Below are positions 3,491 through 35,826 of a DNA stretch of 39,639 bases, in pieces; the stretch's first letter is position 1; each line of letters opens with the position of its first letter. The stretch is from an uncultured Pseudomonadota bacterium. Its GTDB lineage: Bacteria; Pseudomonadota; Gammaproteobacteria; Ga0077536. The notes under the pieces were generated by a model that worked only from the letters and a program-made list of their open reading frames with translations, was not told the DNA's origin and did no database searches. Position numbers and translations under genes: made by a program. Location of the stretch: assembly GCA_902597385.1 (NCBI GenBank), contig CACJXQ010000014.1, forward strand, positions 1 through 39,639, written 5' to 3'.

Positions 3491-4114
3491 TTATTTTCCT
3501 GGTTTTACCAGCTTGTTAAATCGATCAATATCTTTCGCAAATTGAAGAGAAATGTCGTCTCTCTCAATTTCCTTAATTTTAATAAATTGTTGGCTTTCTC
3601 TTATTTGATGTCGTATCAGTTGGGCATTTTCGTCTAAATCGCTATTATCAGGGATGGCCTCCTTTTCATTAGCATCAATTCGAAGCTGAACTCTTTGTAG
3701 GTTCTCTTCTAGTTTCATAATTCTGGATTCTAATAGAATTATTTCTTTGTCAATCTGCTCTACTTTCCTATTTCTCGCCAAAATCAAATCTTCAGTAGAG
3801 GAAAAAGTTTTCAAAAGAGCTTGGTCTGCTTTTCGAGATTCCTCGGCCTTGATCGAAGCCTCTTTTTCCTTTCGAATGGTCTCAAGGGATTTGGCCGCCT
3901 CTTCCTCTCCTATTATAACTCCGCCTCGGCTAATTTTTACTGATGCTCCCTGAGAGTATTTCGGAGGTATTTTATTACCACATTCCCTTACGCCGTCTTC
4001 ATTGGTCCAGCACTTTATATTTGCTCCTGCATCGTTTGAGAAGCAGCAGATTGAGAAAATAAATGCCGCCAAAAGTTGGCCTTGATTCGATCTACTCACT
4101 AACTTTATTTCCAT
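3491..4114 (-). CDS. DUF4124-like secreted protein with coiled coil
   Basis: Function unknown. From the ATG at 4114 it encodes a short basic N-terminus, a hydrophobic signal segment (LLAAFIFSICCF) and a probable cleavage site near NDAGA. The mature N-terminus reads IKCWTNEDGVRECGNKIPP, which resembles the DUF4124 pattern (aromatic/Trp, acidic-Asn-Gly, then a proline-rich end). The rest is rich in Glu, Lys and Arg with heptad-like spacing, predicted coiled coil (roughly residues 55-190). The reading frame stays open upstream to 4144 inside pyrE, but a start at 4114 (23 nt overlap with pyrE) or the GTG at 4099 (8 nt overlap, GGAAAT upstream) is more plausible. It follows pyrE directly and is probably co-transcribed. 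Its role is likely in the periplasm; no catalytic motif is visible. Confidence 0.75.
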   Translation of the reverse strand: MEIKLVSRSNQGQLLAAFIFSICCFSNDAGANIKCWTNEDGVRECGNKIPPKYSQGASVKISRGGVIIGEEEAAKSLETIRKEKEASIKAEESRKADQALLKTFSSTEDLILARNRKVEQIDKEIILLESRIMKLEENLQRVQLRIDANEKEAIPDNSDLDENAQLIRHQIRESQQFIKIKEIERDDISLQFAKDIDRFNKLVKPGK

Positions 4115-4745
4115 AGGCGATGTGATACGTTTGGAGTGCATCAATTTCAGGTAAAAAGTTTCCGATTCCTCGAAGATAGTGCACTATATCATCAAAACTA
4201 ACAATACTTTCCACTTTGAGATTTAATGAGCGCTGAGTTTCTTCTACAGCAGTTTCTGACCCTAATCCTTTCTCCTGGCGATCAAGGGTTATTACTACGG
4301 CGACGGGCCAAGCTCTTTCACCTTCTATGATTTTGACCGATTCTCGCACAGAGGTTCCGGCTGAGATGACATCGTCAATAATTAGCACATTGCCTTTTAG
4401 CTCCTGGCCAACAATCATGCCTTTTTCCCCATGCTTTTTTTCTTCCTTTCTGTTGAAGCAAAACCCAATGTCGCGGTTGTAGAGATCTGAGTAGCAAACC
4501 GATATAGCACTGACCAGAGGAATTCCCTTATAGGCAGGACCAAAAAGCATATCAAACTCTAGGCTTCTATCCTTAATACAAATAGAGTAGGCTCGAGCGA
4601 GTTTTGCTAAGGACGCTCCAGAAGAGAAAGCACCCGTGTTGAAGAAATAGGGGCTAACTCTACCAGATTTCAATGTGAATTCACCGAATTTAAGGGCTCC
4701 TGATTCGATAGCAAAACCTAGGAAGTCTGCTTTATATTCTTCCAT
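4092..4745 (-). CDS. pyrE: Orotate phosphoribosyltransferase
   Basis: Transfers the phosphoribosyl group of PRPP to orotate, giving OMP in pyrimidine synthesis. The 217 aa length is typical of the gammaproteobacterial homodimer. Motifs: FGEFTLKSGRVSPYFFN near the N-terminus, FGPAYKGIPL (about 68-77), the flexible catalytic loop with FNRKEEKKHGE (about 97-107), and the PRPP-binding signature VLIIDDVISAGTSVRES (120-136). The gene is divergent from the exonuclease III-family gene at 4835, an arrangement I recall for pyrE-crc in Pseudomonas. Its 3' end overlaps the start of the DUF4124-like gene. A perfect -10 hexamer lies about 40 nt upstream (see the separate entry). Confidence 0.96.
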   Translation of the reverse strand: MEEYKADFLGFAIESGALKFGEFTLKSGRVSPYFFNTGAFSSGASLAKLARAYSICIKDRSLEFDMLFGPAYKGIPLVSAISVCYSDLYNRDIGFCFNRKEEKKHGEKGMIVGQELKGNVLIIDDVISAGTSVRESVKIIEGERAWPVAVVITLDRQEKGLGSETAVEETQRSLNLKVESIVSFDDIVHYLRGIGNFLPEIDALQTYHIAYGNKVSE

Positions 4746-4789
4746 ATTTTAGTTTCCAATTTTTCTTCAGCTGTATAAGATGTCTCCTT

Positions 4790-4795
4790 ATTATA
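4790..4795 (-). promoter_or_regulatory. Candidate -10 element for pyrE
   Basis: Read on the minus strand this is TATAAT, a perfect sigma70 -10 hexamer, 45-50 nt upstream of the pyrE start. The sequence 17 nt further upstream (TTATTA) matches the -35 consensus at only three positions, so the assignment rests mainly on the -10 and on its position in the divergent intergenic region. Confidence 0.4.
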
Positions 4796-4834
4796 TCTAA
4801 CAAAGCAACCGTTAATAAGGCTTTATAAAATATA

Positions 4835-5614
4835 GTGAAAATTATTTCTTTAAATCTGAATGGCATCCGTGCAGCTTTCAAAAAGGGGTTCCTAAAATGG
4901 CTATCTCGTCAAAAGGCTGATGTGGTTTGTCTTCAAGAAACCAAGGCGCAGGTTTGTGATCTATCGGACGAAATTTTGAATCCTCCAAACTGGTACAGTT
5001 ACTTTTCCGATGCTCAGAAAAAGGGCTACAGTGGTGTTGCCATATATTCACGTATCAGGCCGCAATTTGTTGAATATAGTTTTGGTTTTAAAGAGGCAGA
5101 CGATGAAGGTAGATTTTTGCTCGCTAATTTTGGTGCTCTTTCACTAGTTTCTGTTTATTTTCCCTCAGGCTCTTCGGGAGAAGTTAGACAGTCAGCAAAA
5201 TTCAGATTTTTGAAAAAATTTGGGGCGTGGCTTTCAAAATGTAAGAAAAATAAGGTGTCTTTAGTAGTTTGTGGCGATTGGAATATTGCCCACAAAAAAG
5301 AAGATTTAAAAAATTGGCGCTCCAACCAAAAAAACTCTGGCTTCTTACCTGAAGAGAGAGCCTGGTTGGATTGGGCCTTAGAAAAATGTGGTTTAAGTGA
5401 CGCCTTTCGACTAGTTAACTCTCGTACAGATGAGTTCACGTGGTGGTCTAATAGAGGAAGAGCCTGGGAGAACAATGTTGGATGGAGAATCGACTATCAA
5501 ATGGTAACAAAAGATCTCGCAGATTTAGTAGAGAAGGCGACTATTTACAGGAAATCGCGATTTTCTGATCATGCCCCACTAACCATTACTTATAAATATT
5601 CTTTAAGAGATTGA
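4835..5614 (+). CDS. xth: Exonuclease III-family endonuclease/exonuclease/phosphatase protein at the crc locus
   Basis: Member of the EEP nuclease fold, next to and divergent from pyrE, exactly where Pseudomonas has the catabolite-repression protein Crc. Unlike Crc as I remember it, which lost catalytic residues, this 259 aa protein keeps them all: Glu35 in LQETKA, Tyr108 in VYFPSG, Asp148 and Asn150 in CGDWNIAH, Asp220 in RIDYQ, and Asp245-His246 in SDHAPL. Features shared with Crc include the PSGxSG loop, the KNWR segment after the catalytic Asp and FLPEERAWLD. The start is a GTG, chosen because the family begins MKIIS directly there; no strong ribosome-binding site is visible. A functional AP endonuclease/3'-5' exonuclease is likely. 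A second family member, more like standard ExoIII, is at 35056-35826. Confidence 0.85.
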   Translation: MKIISLNLNGIRAAFKKGFLKWLSRQKADVVCLQETKAQVCDLSDEILNPPNWYSYFSDAQKKGYSGVAIYSRIRPQFVEYSFGFKEADDEGRFLLANFGALSLVSVYFPSGSSGEVRQSAKFRFLKKFGAWLSKCKKNKVSLVVCGDWNIAHKKEDLKNWRSNQKNSGFLPEERAWLDWALEKCGLSDAFRLVNSRTDEFTWWSNRGRAWENNVGWRIDYQMVTKDLADLVEKATIYRKSRFSDHAPLTITYKYSLRD

Positions 5615-5640
5615 AGTCCTAGTTTTTTAAAAATCGAATT

Positions 5641-6249
5641 CTAAGTGGCTAAGCAGGTCCGATAGATAGCGATCTCGCCAAACAGGTTGGGCATTAATTC
5701 GATAATTTTAAAGGGTCTATGCTGAGCGTCTAATATAGCTCTTTCGCTAATTGTAATATTTAGAGTATTGCAAAGCTCCTCAAAATCTTTAATGCTGCAG
5801 ATGTGAATATTCGGTGTCTCGTGCCAACTGTCAGGTAGTTGTCGAGTGATCGGCATTTTGCCTAGCATGAATTGTAATCTGCATCGCCAATGCCCGACAT
5901 TCGGAAAAGTTACTATTCCCTGTTTTCCAATCCTCAGAATCTCCTTGATTACTGAATGAGGTGATCGCAGCGCCTGAATAGTTTGTGTCATTACCACAAA
6001 ATCAAAGGAGCTTTCTTCAAATTCGCTCAATCCTTCGTCGAGATTTGCTTGGATGACATTAACGCCTTTCTGGATACACTTTACGATGTTTTCTGGGTCT
6101 ATCTCTATACCGTAGCCAGTTACAGATTTTTCTTTGTTTAATGCTGCTAAAAATCCCCCATCTCCACATCCCAGATCTAAAACTCTCGCCCCGTCCGTAA
6201 TCCACTCGGAGATCAGTTGATGTTCAGCTCTAAGTTCAGCTATCTTCAT
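5641..6249 (-). CDS. metW: MetW family SAM-dependent methyltransferase-like protein
   Basis: MetW is the conserved partner of MetX in proteobacteria that make methionine from acylated homoserine, and is required with it for methionine synthesis in some species. This 202 aa protein has the class I methyltransferase signature [10 protein letters not shown] (25-34), then the MetW-typical [21 protein letters not shown], and [16 protein letters not shown]. Later family blocks are [21 protein letters not shown] and [20 protein letters not shown]. Its ATG overlaps the metX stop by 4 nt (6246-6249), implying translational coupling. The exact biochemical role is unsettled in the family. It ends the yggS-proC-yggT-metX-metW run. 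Confidence 0.94.
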
Positions 6250-7388
6250 TTAGATGTATTTACCTGTTCAGCGTAAGCGCCAATAATTCGATGATATTGC
6301 GGTATCGGTAATAGAAAAGAATCATGGCCTAATTCTGATTCAATTTGGCAGTAGTTAACATCAAGGTCATTCTCCAACAAAGCCCTGACAATTTCCTTTG
6401 ACCGGCTAGGAGAAAACCGCCAGTCGCTTGAAAATGATACTACTAGGAAGTGAGAGTTACATTTACCCAGAGCCTTAGTCAGATCGCCGCCATAAGAAGC
6501 GGCTGGATCAAAATAGTCTAGAGTTTTGGTCATTAGTAGATATGTGTTTGCGTCAAATCTTCCGACGAATGATTCTCCTTGATGTCGCAAATAAGACTCG
6601 ATTTCAAATTCGACATCGAAGCCAAAGTCAATTTTCCCTTTTCTTAGGTCCCTACCGAATTTTGTGTGTAGTATGTCATCGGATAGATATGTAAGGTGCC
6701 CTATCATTCTTGCAACTTTTAGGCCTCTCTCTGGCACTACGTTTTTCTCGTAAAAATGGCCCCCATGAAACTCTGGATCCGAGCGAATCGCCTGGCGCGC
6801 AATTTCATTAAATGCTATGTTTTGTGTTGATAATCGTGGTGCTGCCGCTATCACAATGGCATGCCGTACTTGGTTAGGATAATCTATTGTCCACTGTAGT
6901 ACTTGCATGCCTCCTAAGCTTCCTCCCATAACAATGGCCCATTTCTCGATTCCAAGTTCTCTGGCCAAACTCTCTTGGCTTTCAACCCAATCTCTTACTG
7001 TAACTATTGGAAAGTCTGGACCATAGGGCCGGGAAGTTTCAGGATTAATTGAAAGAGGCCCGGTGGATCCTCCGCATCCTCCAAGATTATTGGGACAGAC
7101 AACAAAGAACTTATTTGTATCGATAGGCTTCCCCGGCCCTATCATATTGTCCCACCAACCGGCTTTTTTATCTGTTTCCATATATTTTCCGGCGGCGTGC
7201 TGATCTCCTGTCAGGGCGTGACAAACAAGCACCGCATTGTCACGACTATTATTCAAGTTGCCGTATGTTTCATAGCAAATCTCATAGTTTTCTAGGGTAA
7301 CTCCACAATCAAGTTTGAGGGTCCCTTTGAAGAACTGTTTTGATGTTTTGACTATTCCGACATCGTTATCTATGTATTTGCGGTGCAT
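6246..7388 (-). CDS. metX: Homoserine O-acyltransferase (MetX family)
   Basis: Alpha/beta-hydrolase-fold enzyme that acylates L-homoserine from an acyl-CoA, the first committed step of methionine synthesis. The nucleophile elbow GGSLGGMQ places the catalytic Ser at 157; the partner Asp is in SSDWRFSP and the His in GHDSFLLP near the C-terminus. Conserved N-terminal blocks are [19 protein letters not shown] and [12 protein letters not shown]. The 380 aa length is normal. In gammaproteobacteria that carry MetW, MetX enzymes often use succinyl-CoA rather than acetyl-CoA; the sequence alone does not let me decide. The start at 7388 fits the family N-terminus (DNDVGIVK after a few residues), but no ribosome-binding site precedes it. 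Translationally coupled to metW. Confidence 0.94.
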
Positions 7389-9527: not shown

Positions 9528-9664
9528 AGGTTTTTGCTTTTCATCAGGTTGGTAAGAAAGGGTATACCTTGTTAAAGTGGATACAGCCTATTATGTAAAC
9601 GTTAGACTTGGAAGTATAGAGTGCTCGAGCACAAGAATCATTGAAACTACGACTAGGAGAGGCG

Positions 9665-10699
9665 ATGGATATTGGTGAATTATTGGCGTTTGGGGTGAAA
9701 AATGGAGCTTCTGATATGCACTTATCGGCTGGAATGCCGCCGATGATTCGCGTGGACGGGGACATGAGGAAAATTGATATTCCTCCTATGGATAACACAG
9801 CCGTGCGTGATCTGGTATATGACATCATGAATGATAAGCAGCAAAAGGAGTTTGAGGAGTTCCTAGAATGTGATTTTTCCTTTGAAATTCCAGGTCTAGC
9901 TAGGTTTCGAGTAAATGCCTTAAATCAAAATAGAGGTGCTGGTGCCGTTTTTCGTACGATTCCCTCAAAGATTCTTAGCTTAGAGGATCTTAATGCGCCT
10001 AATATATTTAAGGAAATTTCCGACTACCCTCGGGGAGTTGTTTTGGTGACTGGTCCTACGGGCTCTGGGAAGTCGACAACTTTAGCCGCAATGGTGGACC
10101 ATAAAAATGAGACGGAGTATGGTCACATCTTAACGATAGAGGATCCTATTGAGTTTGTGCATCAGAGTAAAAAGTGTTTAATCACCCAAAGAGAAGTGCA
10201 CCGAGATACACTAGGTTTTAATGAAGCTTTACGTTCTGCCCTCAGGGAGGACCCAGATGTCATTTTGGTTGGCGAGATGAGGGATTTGGAGACAATTAGA
10301 CTTGCATTATCTGCTGCCGAAACTGGACACTTGGTTTTTGGAACTCTTCACACCAGCTCTGCTGCCAAGACTGTCGATCGAATTGTTGATGTTTTTCCCG
10401 CTGAGGAAAAGGATATGGTTAGGGCAATGCTTTCTGAATCTCTGAAGGCTGTGATATCACAGGTATTGTGCAAAAAAGTTGGTGGTGGCAGGGTTGCAGC
10501 TCATGAAATAATGATTGGCACACCCGCAATAAGGAATCTGATAAGAGAAAATAAATTAGCTCAAATGTACTCTGCTATACAAACTGGACAACAGTTTGGA
10601 ATGCAAACGTTGGATCAGAATCTAAAAAATCTTTTGTCTCGTAATGAAATTACCGTTGCAGATGCTCGCTCTAAAGCTGCCAACAAAGACGATTTCTAA
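9665..10699 (+). CDS. pilT: Type IV pilus retraction ATPase PilT
   Basis: Hexameric ATPase at the inner membrane that powers pilus retraction. The start was set at 9665, not the in-frame ATG at 9641, because MDIGELLAF is the family N-terminus and AGGAGA precedes it at 9655-9660; this gives 344 aa, the standard PilT length. Motifs: PAS-like N-domain with SDMHLSAGMPPMIRVDGD, Walker A GPTGSGKS (130-137), Asp-box TIEDPIEFVH (158-167), Walker B LVGEMRDLET (201-210), His-box GHLVFGTLHT (221-230), and the PilT hallmark AIRNLIRE (288-295), which is needed for retraction in characterised PilT proteins. First of three related ATPases in tandem, divergent from yggS. Confidence 0.96.
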   Translation: MDIGELLAFGVKNGASDMHLSAGMPPMIRVDGDMRKIDIPPMDNTAVRDLVYDIMNDKQQKEFEEFLECDFSFEIPGLARFRVNALNQNRGAGAVFRTIPSKILSLEDLNAPNIFKEISDYPRGVVLVTGPTGSGKSTTLAAMVDHKNETEYGHILTIEDPIEFVHQSKKCLITQREVHRDTLGFNEALRSALREDPDVILVGEMRDLETIRLALSAAETGHLVFGTLHTSSAAKTVDRIVDVFPAEEKDMVRAMLSESLKAVISQVLCKKVGGGRVAAHEIMIGTPAIRNLIRENKLAQMYSAIQTGQQFGMQTLDQNLKNLLSRNEITVADARSKAANKDDF

Positions 10700-10740
10700 C
10701 GCGACTTTTTGGCCATGATGTAAAATAACGGAGATCATAG

Positions 10741-11907
10741 ATGGAAAGAGAAGATGCAATAAAGACGATGCGAGACCTCTTGGCTTCAATGGTGGAAAAG
10801 AAAAGCTCTGATATGTTTATAACAGATGGTTTTCCTCCTGCTATGAAAATCGATGGGAAGATAGTCCCTGTGGGAGAAGACACTCTTTTAAGTGATGATA
10901 CAAAGGCCCTATGTTCCGCGATAATGAATGATCGCCAAGTGAAGGAGTTTGAGGCTACCAAAGAATGTAACTTCGCTATTTCACCAAAGGGAATAGGACG
11001 TTTTCGAGTAAATGCTTTTGTTCAACAGGGTTCAAATGGTTTAGTAATTAGAGCAATAGAAACCGAGATTCCAAATATTGATAAATTGGGTCTTCCCGCA
11101 GTGATGAAAGATATTATCATGACCAAGCGGGGCCTTGTAATTATGGTCGGTGGAACTGGATCTGGAAAATCCACGTCCCTGGCGGCTTTGATTGATCATA
11201 GGAATGCTAATTCTCATGGCCACATAATTACCATAGAAGATCCCATCGAGTATGTTCACCCTCATAAAGGCTGTATTGTCATGCAGAGGGAAGTTGGGGT
11301 AGATACCGACGATTGGGATATAGCGTTGAAAAATACTTTGAGGCAGGCTCCAGATGTCATTTTATTGGGTGAAATAAGAGATAGAGAAACAATGGAGTTT
11401 GCGGTGGCGTTTGCAGAAACTGGGCATTTGGCTGTAGCTACGCTTCATGCTAACAGCGCTAATCAGGCGCTGGATCGTATAGTGAATTTTTTTCCAGAGG
11501 AAAGAAAACAGCAGCTGTTACAAGATTTGTCCCTTAACCTAAAAGGCGTGATTTCCCAAAGACTGTTAAGGAAGCCTGACGGTAAAGGAAGAGTGGCGGC
11601 TATTGAAATACTGATAAATTCTCCTTTGATTTCGGATCTGATTTTGAAAGGCGAAGTTCATGGGATAAAGGAAATCATGTCCAAATCTAACGATTTGGGG
11701 ATGAAAACTTTTGATCAAGCCCTTTTTGAATTATTTGAAGAAGATTTAATTAGTGTAGATGAAGCGTTAAAAAATGCGGACTCCGAAAATGAATTACGGC
11801 TACGTATAAAACTCGAGGGGAAAGCTTCAAAAGGACGAAATATTTTGGACGAAGTCAGTGGGTTTTCTTTAGAGGAAAAAGAGGAAGACACTGGGACATT
11901 AGGTTAA
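10741..11907 (+). CDS. pilU: PilU-type retraction ATPase
   Basis: PilT-dependent accessory retraction ATPase. It begins 41 bp after pilT with GGAG upstream of the ATG. At 388 aa it has the length and C-terminal tail typical of PilU; the tail after residue 355 is rich in Glu and Lys. Walker A GGTGSGKS is at 137-144, Walker B LLGEIRDRET follows, and the His-box is GHLAVATLHA. The PilT hallmark AIRNLIRE is replaced by LISDLILKGE, as expected in PilU, which generally supports retraction only together with PilT. The gene ends 6 bp before a third homologue. Confidence 0.93.
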   Translation: MEREDAIKTMRDLLASMVEKKSSDMFITDGFPPAMKIDGKIVPVGEDTLLSDDTKALCSAIMNDRQVKEFEATKECNFAISPKGIGRFRVNAFVQQGSNGLVIRAIETEIPNIDKLGLPAVMKDIIMTKRGLVIMVGGTGSGKSTSLAALIDHRNANSHGHIITIEDPIEYVHPHKGCIVMQREVGVDTDDWDIALKNTLRQAPDVILLGEIRDRETMEFAVAFAETGHLAVATLHANSANQALDRIVNFFPEERKQQLLQDLSLNLKGVISQRLLRKPDGKGRVAAIEILINSPLISDLILKGEVHGIKEIMSKSNDLGMKTFDQALFELFEEDLISVDEALKNADSENELRLRIKLEGKASKGRNILDEVSGFSLEEKEEDTGTLG

Positions 11908-11913
11908 GAGTAA

Positions 11914-12969
11914 ATGATCAACTCCTATTTAGAAATATTAAGAGACAAAAAAGGCTCTGACCTGTTTTTGAGCGCAAATTGCAAACCTTTGATAAAAATT
12001 GAAGGTAACTTGCACGAAATCGGAGAGGAAGTTCTTAATGGAAACAGTGTTAAGTCTGCAGCTTTAGGGATTATGAGTGAAAATCAGGTAAAAAAATTTG
12101 AGGAGGAGCTGGATCTTGATTTTGCTTGTGAACTGCCTGATGGTTCGGCTCGTTTCAGAGTAAATGTTTTTTTTCAGCGAGGGGAGTGGGGCTTGGTTTT
12201 GCGGTTGATACCTTCAAGTGTCCCCAATCTATCGGAGCTTGATGTTCCTGAAGTTCTTTCGGAGCTTATGACTAATCGGCGTGGCCTTATCCTTATGGTA
12301 GGCGGTACTGGCTCCGGAAAATCTACAACTTTAGCCGCAATGATCAATCATAGAAACGAAAAATTTGGGGGACATATCCTAACTATAGAGGATCCAATCG
12401 AGTTTTCTCACAAAAGCTTAAAGTCAATTGTTAACCAAAGAGAGGTTGGGGTTGATACCAAAAGCTATCATGCGGCCTTGAGGTCGGCGATGAGGGAAGC
12501 TCCTGATGTCATAATGATTGGCGAGATCAGGGATCGAGAAACTATGGAAACTACAATGGAGTTATGCAATACAGGACACCTAGCTATTTCTACAATGCAT
12601 GCTAACAATGCGAACCAAGCTATAGAGAGAATTGTGAATCTCTATCCTCAAAATCTCCATAAGCAGCTTTTTATGGACTTGTCTCTCAATATGCGAGCGG
12701 TCATATCTCAGCGCTTAATAAAAGGTTTAGAATCTAGAAGGGTGGCCGCAGTCGAGGTGCTCCTAAATACCCCTCATATAGCGGACTTGATACTCCAAGG
12801 TGCAATTGGTGATATTAAGGAGGCTATGGAAAACACAGGACAGAAGGGTGCTCAAACTTTTGATAATGCTTTATATGACCTTTTCAAAGCCGATAAAATA
12901 TCTATGGAAGAAGCATTAGGTAATGCAGACTCAAGGGCAAATTTAGAAACGAAGATTAATTTTGGTTAG
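11914..12969 (+). CDS. Third PilT/PilU-family ATPase (PilU-like)
   Basis: A 351 aa protein immediately after pilU. It has the full ATPase core: Walker A GGTGSGKS (130-137), Asp-box TIEDPIEFSH, Walker B MIGEIRDRET and His-box GHLAISTMHA. As in PilU the retraction motif is HIADLILQGA instead of AIRNLIRE. It shares many signatures with PilU, such as RRGLILMVGGTGSGKST, QREVGVDT, APDVI, HANxANQAxxRIVN, DLSLN and VISQRL. It lacks PilU's extended tail and ends where PilT does. Most likely a diverged PilU paralogue arising by tandem duplication. Whether it forms a homohexamer or mixes with PilT or PilU is unknown. Start ATG chosen because the preceding gene ends 6 bp upstream. Confidence 0.88.
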   Translation: MINSYLEILRDKKGSDLFLSANCKPLIKIEGNLHEIGEEVLNGNSVKSAALGIMSENQVKKFEEELDLDFACELPDGSARFRVNVFFQRGEWGLVLRLIPSSVPNLSELDVPEVLSELMTNRRGLILMVGGTGSGKSTTLAAMINHRNEKFGGHILTIEDPIEFSHKSLKSIVNQREVGVDTKSYHAALRSAMREAPDVIMIGEIRDRETMETTMELCNTGHLAISTMHANNANQAIERIVNLYPQNLHKQLFMDLSLNMRAVISQRLIKGLESRRVAAVEVLLNTPHIADLILQGAIGDIKEAMENTGQKGAQTFDNALYDLFKADKISMEEALGNADSRANLETKINFG

Positions 12970-35055: not shown

Positions 35056-35826
35056 TTAGGTGTCAATAAGAATTGAAACAGGGGCATGATCGGATGGTTT
35101 CTCCCAGCCTCTAGGTGTTGCATCGACTGAAGACTCAGAGATATGCTCAATCAGATTGGCGCTGGCTAGGATCAAATCGATCCTCAAACCATGGTTTTTT
35201 CTGAAACTACCTCCCCGATAGTCCCACCAGGTGAAGGCGCTGGTATCCTCATCTATTTGTCTGAAGGTTTCGATAAGACCTAATTCCTTGAGGTCTTTAA
35301 GAAATCCTCTCTCCCTCTTGCTACATAAGGTTTTATCTTGCCACAGCACTGGATCGTGAACGTCTAAATCAGTGGGTGCTATATTAAAATCACCCAAGAC
35401 TATAATTTTTTTGAATGTTTTGTTTAGTTCTTTTATCCAGAGACAAAAAGCTTCCAACCAGTTTATCTTATAGTCAAATTTTTCTGAGCCGATCTCGCCA
35501 CCGTTTGGAACATAAATGTTTATTATCAATATTCCTTTCCACTCTACCGCTAAAACGCGCTTTTGTTCATCAGAAAATCTTGGTATCCGGTCGCTGATAA
35601 GTTCCGCATTCCCCTTAAAAAAAATGCAGACTCCGTTGTATGATTTTTGGCCGCTGTAGAAGACTTGATAACCTAGTTGATTAACAAAGTCCAAGGGAAA
35701 ATTTTGGTTTTGCACCTTTGTTTCTTGCAGCCCTAGAATATCTACGGGGTTACTCGAAAGCCATCTTTTAAGGTGTTCCTCCCGAGCTCTTATCGAATTG
35801 ACGTTCCAGCTGGCTATTTTGGCCAT
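35056..35826 (-). CDS. xthA: Exodeoxyribonuclease III
   Basis: AP endonuclease and 3'-5' exonuclease of base-excision repair. The start was set at 35826 (MAKIASWNVNSIRA): AAGGA lies 8 nt upstream and the product is 256 aa, while the longer open frame to 35928 overlaps moeB and has no family similarity. Catalytic residues are Glu35 in LQETK, Asp and Asn in LGDFNIAPTDLD, Asp in RIDLIL and Asp-His in SDHAP; TYR-containing INIYVPNGGE is also intact. It is the second ExoIII-family gene in the window. It follows moeB by 29 bp. Confidence 0.93.
   Translation of the reverse strand: MAKIASWNVNSIRAREEHLKRWLSSNPVDILGLQETKVQNQNFPLDFVNQLGYQVFYSGQKSYNGVCIFFKGNAELISDRIPRFSDEQKRVLAVEWKGILIINIYVPNGGEIGSEKFDYKINWLEAFCLWIKELNKTFKKIIVLGDFNIAPTDLDVHDPVLWQDKTLCSKRERGFLKDLKELGLIETFRQIDEDTSAFTWWDYRGGSFRKNHGLRIDLILASANLIEHISESSVDATPRGWEKPSDHAPVSILIDT

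Follow-up and report, generated by a model that had tools for sequence, protein, structure and literature searches.

The gene at positions 4835..5614 (+) of the window, by which we mean the whole 39,639-nucleotide stretch of DNA analyzed here, very probably encodes a catalytically competent class II AP endonuclease/3'-5' exonuclease from the ExoIII (xth) family, NApe branch. We infer its activity and its role in repair from the sequence, the catalytic residues, the position and the phylogeny of the gene, together with the purifying selection acting on it. A catalytic enzyme is the default state of the gene beside pyrE, and the 4835-5614 copy is an ordinary one at its usual place. Pseudomonas and its order are the unusual ones, in which the pyrE-linked gene has turned into the enzyme-dead regulator Crc. 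In this sample the dead form is confined to the Pseudomonas order, and elsewhere the locus holds an apparently working enzyme. The 4835-5614 gene itself is of little consequence, since the site is conserved and a predicted repair gene is what it holds by default.

The gene and its neighborhood

The open reading frame starts with GTG and translates into 259 amino acids. It is transcribed away from pyrE, the orotate phosphoribosyltransferase gene (4092..4745, minus strand; TIGR00336, 176.3 bits, cut-off 106.8), and toward metW, which lies downstream and convergent (5641..6249, minus strand; TIGR02081, 254 bits), and metX (6246..7388, minus strand; NF047916, 623 bits). Because pyrE is on the minus strand and the exonuclease gene on the plus strand, the two form a divergent pair with 89 bases (4746..4834) between their starts. 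This intergenic stretch was inspected directly, and a simple scan of positions 4600-5700 found no promoter-like pair within it; together with the GTG start, this is counted against the AP endonuclease reading. Among the relatives' loci, metW lies within 1.5 kb in 22 of 29.

Comparison with a 95%-identical copy from the same genus (genome G002) yielded 39 synonymous and 14 non-synonymous differences across 258 codons, a dN/dS of 0.08, and the gene is under purifying selection. This ratio, along with a TIGR00633 match of 258.2 bits (cut-off 99.05), indicates that the reading frame is more than a chance occurrence, and a chance or decaying frame was ruled out by the same dN/dS. The source genome is a draft, 72.7% complete.

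Two further features of the window were recorded. A 217-amino-acid protein encoded at 3491-4144 (minus strand) overlaps the end of pyrE and has no Pfam or NCBIfam match; of 29 loci from relatives, 19 have a related protein close to pyrE, with 24-41% identity (86% in the same-genus locus L003). At 9641-12969 (plus strand) three genes for PilT/PilU-family ATPases follow in succession (TIGR01420, 508, 456 and 415 bits). Genes for these ATPases usually come as a pair, and the window carries one more.

Family membership and catalytic residues

The TIGR00633 match extends over the full length and places the protein in the ExoIII/AP endonuclease family. TIGR00195 likewise matches over the full length (244.9 bits, cut-off 182.55), and PF03372 gives 101 bits. 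All eight catalytic positions (N7, E35, Y108, D148, N150, D220, D245 and H246) are intact, which by itself is no proof of activity. The initial annotation had reported seven of them, Glu35, Tyr108, Asp148, Asn150, Asp220, Asp245 and His246, and every one is present under that number. In the ExoIII family E35 binds the metal, D148, N150, D220, D245 and H246 serve in cleavage, Y108 and N7 contact the phosphate, and cleavage falls on the 5' side of an abasic site. By analogy, E35 of the 4835-5614 protein would bind the metal, the residues from D148 to H246 would make up the site that cleaves the phosphodiester bond, and Y108 and N7 would help hold the scissile phosphate. The enzyme would then make a metal-dependent nick 5' of an abasic site, and trim in the 3'-5' direction, as part of base excision repair.

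When solved structures were ranked, the protein was nearest to NApe (2jc5, 303 bits), followed by Crc (234 bits), E. coli ExoIII (94 bits) and NExo (75 bits), which places it with the NApe-type AP endonucleases. The protein is 52% identical to NApe and 41% to a Pseudomonas-type Crc (L046); among its close copies, one from the same genus reaches 95% and 31 others 47-64%. In Neisseria, NApe is an efficient AP endonuclease and NExo a 3'-phosphatase, and S112 of NApe is among the residues that separate the two, according to the accessible part of the report (PMC6294502). The loop PSGSSG at residues 110-115 contains S111, which aligns to S112 of NApe; this is consistent with an AP endonuclease devoid of 3'-phosphatase activity.

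The NCBIfam name of the protein is exodeoxyribonuclease III, well over the cut-offs, a name that would suit an ordinary ExoIII of the E. coli type, standing in no particular relation to Crc. We give that reading next to no probability, since E. coli ExoIII scores 94 bits where Crc scores 234 and NApe 303, and since PRK11756, which we take to be a model built on E. coli xthA, reaches 132 bits against a cut-off of 280. The tree described below separates the protein from ExoIII-type sequences as well.

The blocks KNWR and FLPEERAWLD, which had been read as Crc-like, are indeed found in the protein. They do not mark Crc, because KNW and FLPEERAWLD are the consensus of an alignment made up mostly of active members and Crc itself reads FLAPERAWLD.

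Catalytic and dead copies beside pyrE

Family loci (266) were collected from relatives, from the class, from the family of a Pseudomonas-type genome and from its order. A locus was called active if it carried the full eight-residue signature and dead otherwise; dead is thus a prediction, made with at least three of the eight residues replaced (three in 6 loci, four in 8, five in 81 and six in 25). A locus not beside pyrE is one with no pyrE in the available flank, which spans roughly 1.5 kb for most loci and 2.5 kb for the titled-record scan. Genomes were assigned to the Pseudomonas family or order by inference, on the grounds of a Crc up to 92% identical to that of P. aeruginosa and of the presence of CrcZ, and a genome counts as outside the order if it is absent from the order set and has no family code in common with it. 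Coverage in the class was about 120 of 208 matching genomes (30 returned loci, 39 chosen places, the relatives' loci and 40 weaker matches). For the 119 Pseudomonas-family-like genomes it was 30 returned and 18 chosen loci, 51 in all with L046, L106 and L107. Within the Pseudomonas order, 121 of 145 genomes match, and the returned loci plus 82 chosen places were covered, from a list of matches that contains further two-copy genomes.

Among the closer relatives, and counting the window's own genome, 33 of 40 have a copy at E < 1e-70; in 27 of the 29 loci read from the other genomes, pyrE lies within 1.5 kb. The exceptions are L027, where the contig stops 593 bases upstream, and L031, with no pyrE within 5 kb. 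Over the whole collection, pyrE stands beside 199 of the 266 loci and is upstream and divergent every time, with a median gap of 103 bases; five gaps of 525-1350 bases were counted as beside. The site beside pyrE is a common arrangement in the class. The 199 loci comprise 81 active ones, a figure that includes the window's own and two repeats, and 118 dead ones. As the divergent locus is common to both kinds, it has no discriminating value for Crc. The initial annotation was correct in describing a relative of Crc at the position of Crc next to pyrE.

The split between active and dead copies follows the order. After the 266 loci were collapsed to 255 distinct proteins, those outside the Pseudomonas order were all active (103/103), comprising 72 of 72 linked to pyrE, the window's included, and 31 of 31 others. 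Inside the order 111 of 118 distinct pyrE-linked proteins are dead, and of the copies with no pyrE in reach 32 of 34 are active and 2 dead. The seven active pyrE-linked proteins inside the order (L040, L115, L116, L121, L128, L158 and L162) mean that the split is not absolute.

Forty additional genomes of the class, from the weaker-match end, gave 38 loci with the full signature and two truncated loci with no replaced residue. pyrE is near 21 of these 40 loci, upstream and divergent in 20 and downstream on the same strand in one, and all 21 pyrE-linked loci, which are outside the Pseudomonas order, have the full signature. In total, 93 of 93 pyrE-linked copies read outside the order (72 distinct proteins and 21 loci) carry the full catalytic signature. 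In a scan of titled records the signature was present in all 80 best matches to the 4835-5614 protein, a set that leans toward active copies because it consists of best matches to that protein; two of the 80 duplicate earlier loci. pyrE is in reach of 51 of the 80 (50 divergent, one on the same strand). These records include Nitrosospira, Gallionella and Janthinobacterium, where pyrE is in reach, and Nitrosomonas, Burkholderia and Haliea, where it is not. The 4835-5614 copy had been singled out for keeping its catalytic residues at this position. Since pyrE-linked homologues outside the Pseudomonas order are routinely catalytic (72/72 and 21/21, as well as 51/51 of those among the best 80), it loses that special status.

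Two observations on individual records arose from the survey. The large genomes G009 and G016, from the window's own family, lack a close copy of the pyrE type; they carry instead a divergent ExoIII-family protein (L036 and L037, 38-39% identity), and pyrE is absent from the surrounding 3 kb or so. A record titled Klebsiella pneumoniae isolate ZE-13nov19-135 (L272) encodes a protein identical to that of L007, which belongs to the window's family, and the organism name in the title looks wrong.

Phylogeny

Two trees were built, both with the catalytic columns removed. The FastTree tree drew on 178 of 269 rows, left after filtering at 80% identity, with eight columns removed. All 58 of its dead rows form one clade with support of 100 among active rows, and the next larger set, of 73 rows including 15 active ones, has support of 93. 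The IQ-TREE tree used 56 rows, of which 19 were forced in and the others passed a 62% filter, with 15 divergent or partial rows excluded by name; its bootstrap was not fully settled. There the dead clade has support of 100/100, was found in 100% of 200 bootstrap trees and excludes the 4835-5614 protein. That protein groups with four active pyrE-linked relatives of its own family (100/99), and it shares with NApe a group of eight rows at just 82/74. A branch with 100/100 support sets the two rows of NExo/ExoIII type apart from the other 54, among them the 4835-5614 protein, NApe and Crc, which further argues against an E. coli-type ExoIII, although E. coli ExoIII itself is outside this tree. 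The protein was also rejected as a Crc in its own right, its catalytic residues being intact and its place lying outside the dead clade.

The dead clade is nested among active rows in the IQ-TREE tree, but bootstrap on those branches is 14-69, so that the nearest active kin of Crc or of the 4835-5614 protein are not firmly fixed. Catalysis can be taken as the older state because the dead proteins are a single clade within a catalytic family whose outgroup is catalytic too. The outgroup, and the fact that all lineages read outside the order are active, carry most of this argument, and the exact nesting weighs less.

That the 4835-5614 protein is the direct form from which Crc arose, close to the branch on which activity was lost, is a reading to which its family, locus and orientation, together with a catalysis that predates the dead clade, would lend themselves. 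It is nevertheless highly improbable. The protein sits in an active clade with relatives of its own family (100/99), and in the best tree it is L115, L116, L158 and L242, followed by L064 and L162, that lie closest to the dead clade among active rows, with weak support. A tree constrained to unite the protein and the dead clade is worse by 33.8 log-likelihood units (p-AU 0.014), and on this value the protein was rejected as the immediate pre-Crc form. From the placement of the dead clade and this test it follows that Crc is derived and that the 4835-5614 protein is its active cousin rather than a link. The proposal that the protein represents the ancestral active form thus survives as far as catalysis is older, the dead clade being single and the outgroup catalytic; it fails in making this copy special or a near relative of Crc.

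Crc contacts, CrcZ and Hfq

According to the accessible part of PMC3662782, of four catalytic residues Crc retains just Asp220 and His246, and it shows no nuclease activity; both the catalytic residues that Crc lacks and its alignment with NApe are thus already in print there. Acinetobacter Crc is also described as lacking nuclease activity, with nothing further on catalytic residues in the accessible part of that report (PMC8312277). The main text of the ExoMeg1 paper (PMC4750427) does not contain 'Crc', and its string 'pyrE' belongs to pyrethroid. The loss of catalytic residues that characterizes Crc is not seen in the 4835-5614 protein, in which all are intact, while the pyrE-divergent locus is shared.

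The initial annotation had also raised a dual nuclease/regulator, that is, an active nuclease that would also work with Hfq as a co-repressor in the manner of Crc. With the Pseudomonas-type Crc (L046) the protein has family and locus in common and is 41% identical. The accessible part of PMC6422490 names 16 Crc residues that contact RNA or another Crc in the Hfq/Crc assembly, including M156 and N184 as backbone contacts and K155, W161 and R162 as RNA contacts. Of these 16, as named there, K155, W161 and R162 are identical in the 4835-5614 protein. The other 13 differ, among them R140 and R141, which are K and V in the protein and invariant across 120 of 120 dead loci; in these dead loci the other Crc contact residues vary outside the Pseudomonas family. 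Two of the retained contacts are general among active pyrE-linked loci, W161 occurring in 77 of 81 and R or K at 162 in 78 of 81. R141 is found in 70 of these 81 loci and R140 in 29, so the R140/R141 pair is partly inherited and is no proof of a regulator by itself.

CrcZ was not found in the window's own genome (72.7% complete) or in two genomes of the same genus, with four of four Pseudomonas-type controls positive, though the CrcZ model of Rfam may be limited to RNAs of the Pseudomonas type. Hfq, the partner in such a role, was not found in the own, incomplete genome, but both genomes of the same genus carry it, and 32 of 40 genomes do so in all, a count in which the own genome is a miss. 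Given the 72.7% completeness and the same-genus genomes, its absence is probably a gap. A dual role is very unlikely. Separately, in genus g3 of the window's family Hfq was unmatched in three of four genomes (G012, G018 and G023, which are 98%, 88% and 87% complete), and it may really be missing there.

The second family member of the window

A second ExoIII-family gene lies at 35056..35826 (minus strand). The initial annotation had called it a separate standard xthA; the second copy is real, and it is nearest to NExo (2jc4/6fk4, 207 bits), with E. coli ExoIII (1ako, 154 bits) following. In the alignment it has Asn at the position of NExo N108 and Leu at that of NExo H167. Since this copy is closest to NExo, the window holds a Neisseria-like pair, and its product is perhaps a partner that cleans 3' ends alongside the 4835-5614 enzyme.

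Origin of Crc

Within the Pseudomonas order, dead Crc-like proteins are spread over several families (f171, f172, f177, f178, f204, f205 and others) and not restricted to the Pseudomonas family, and they form one clade; the dead rows lie among L108-L131 and L151-L226, together with L046, L076-L107 and L133-L150. The loss of catalysis in Crc looks like one event common to the order. Crc of this order represents a derived branch of the family, without catalysis, at the locus shared with the active copies. Nineteen two-copy genomes were paired. In 16 of them a dead copy at pyrE is accompanied by an active copy elsewhere (L155/L156, L164/L165, L166/L167, L170/L171, L180/L181, L184/L185, L187/L188, L117/L195, L197/L198, L201/L200, L203/L204, L207/L208, L213/L212, L216/L217, L218/L219 and L124/L191), as if the repair role had moved when the pyrE copy became Crc. 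The exceptions are G454 and G518, which have two active copies away from pyrE, and G202, outside the order, which has two active copies, one of them at pyrE.

R141 in 70 and R140 in 29 of the 81 active pyrE-linked loci leave room for bifunctional active copies. It could be conjectured that binding of RNA or Hfq came before the loss of catalysis, that some active pyrE-linked AP endonucleases are bifunctional and that Crc arose by a single, order-wide conversion of enzyme to regulator in place, a scenario that we consider doubtful. Its best candidates would be L115, L116, L158 and L162, inside the Pseudomonas order, and not the 4835-5614 protein. The limits of the dead clade and the two-copy genomes offer definite places in which to test when the regulator function arose. 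Titles and abstract openings held no statement of catalytic pyrE-linked relatives outside the Pseudomonas order or of a single loss; with subscription literature mostly uncovered, this is weak evidence of absence.

Comparison with known systems

Crc of Pseudomonas (PDB 4jg3) resembles the 4835-5614 protein in family and length, in an alignment free of gaps and in the pyrE-divergent locus. It differs in that E35, Y108, D148, N150 and D245, all kept in the 4835-5614 protein, are replaced, and 13 of the 16 contact residues named in the accessible part of PMC6422490 are different. NExo of N. meningitidis and E. coli ExoIII have the superfamily and the catalytic set in common with the protein, yet match it with just 75 and 94 bits. 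The closest known system is NApe of Neisseria meningitidis (PDB 2jc5), with 52% end-to-end identity and no difference at any of the eight catalytic positions. The serine that helps exclude 3'-phosphatase activity in NApe (S112) corresponds to S111, and a NExo-like paralogue accompanies NApe as it does the 4835-5614 gene in the window (35056-35826). Unlike NApe, with a net charge of -1, and Crc, with -5, the 4835-5614 protein is strongly basic (+13).
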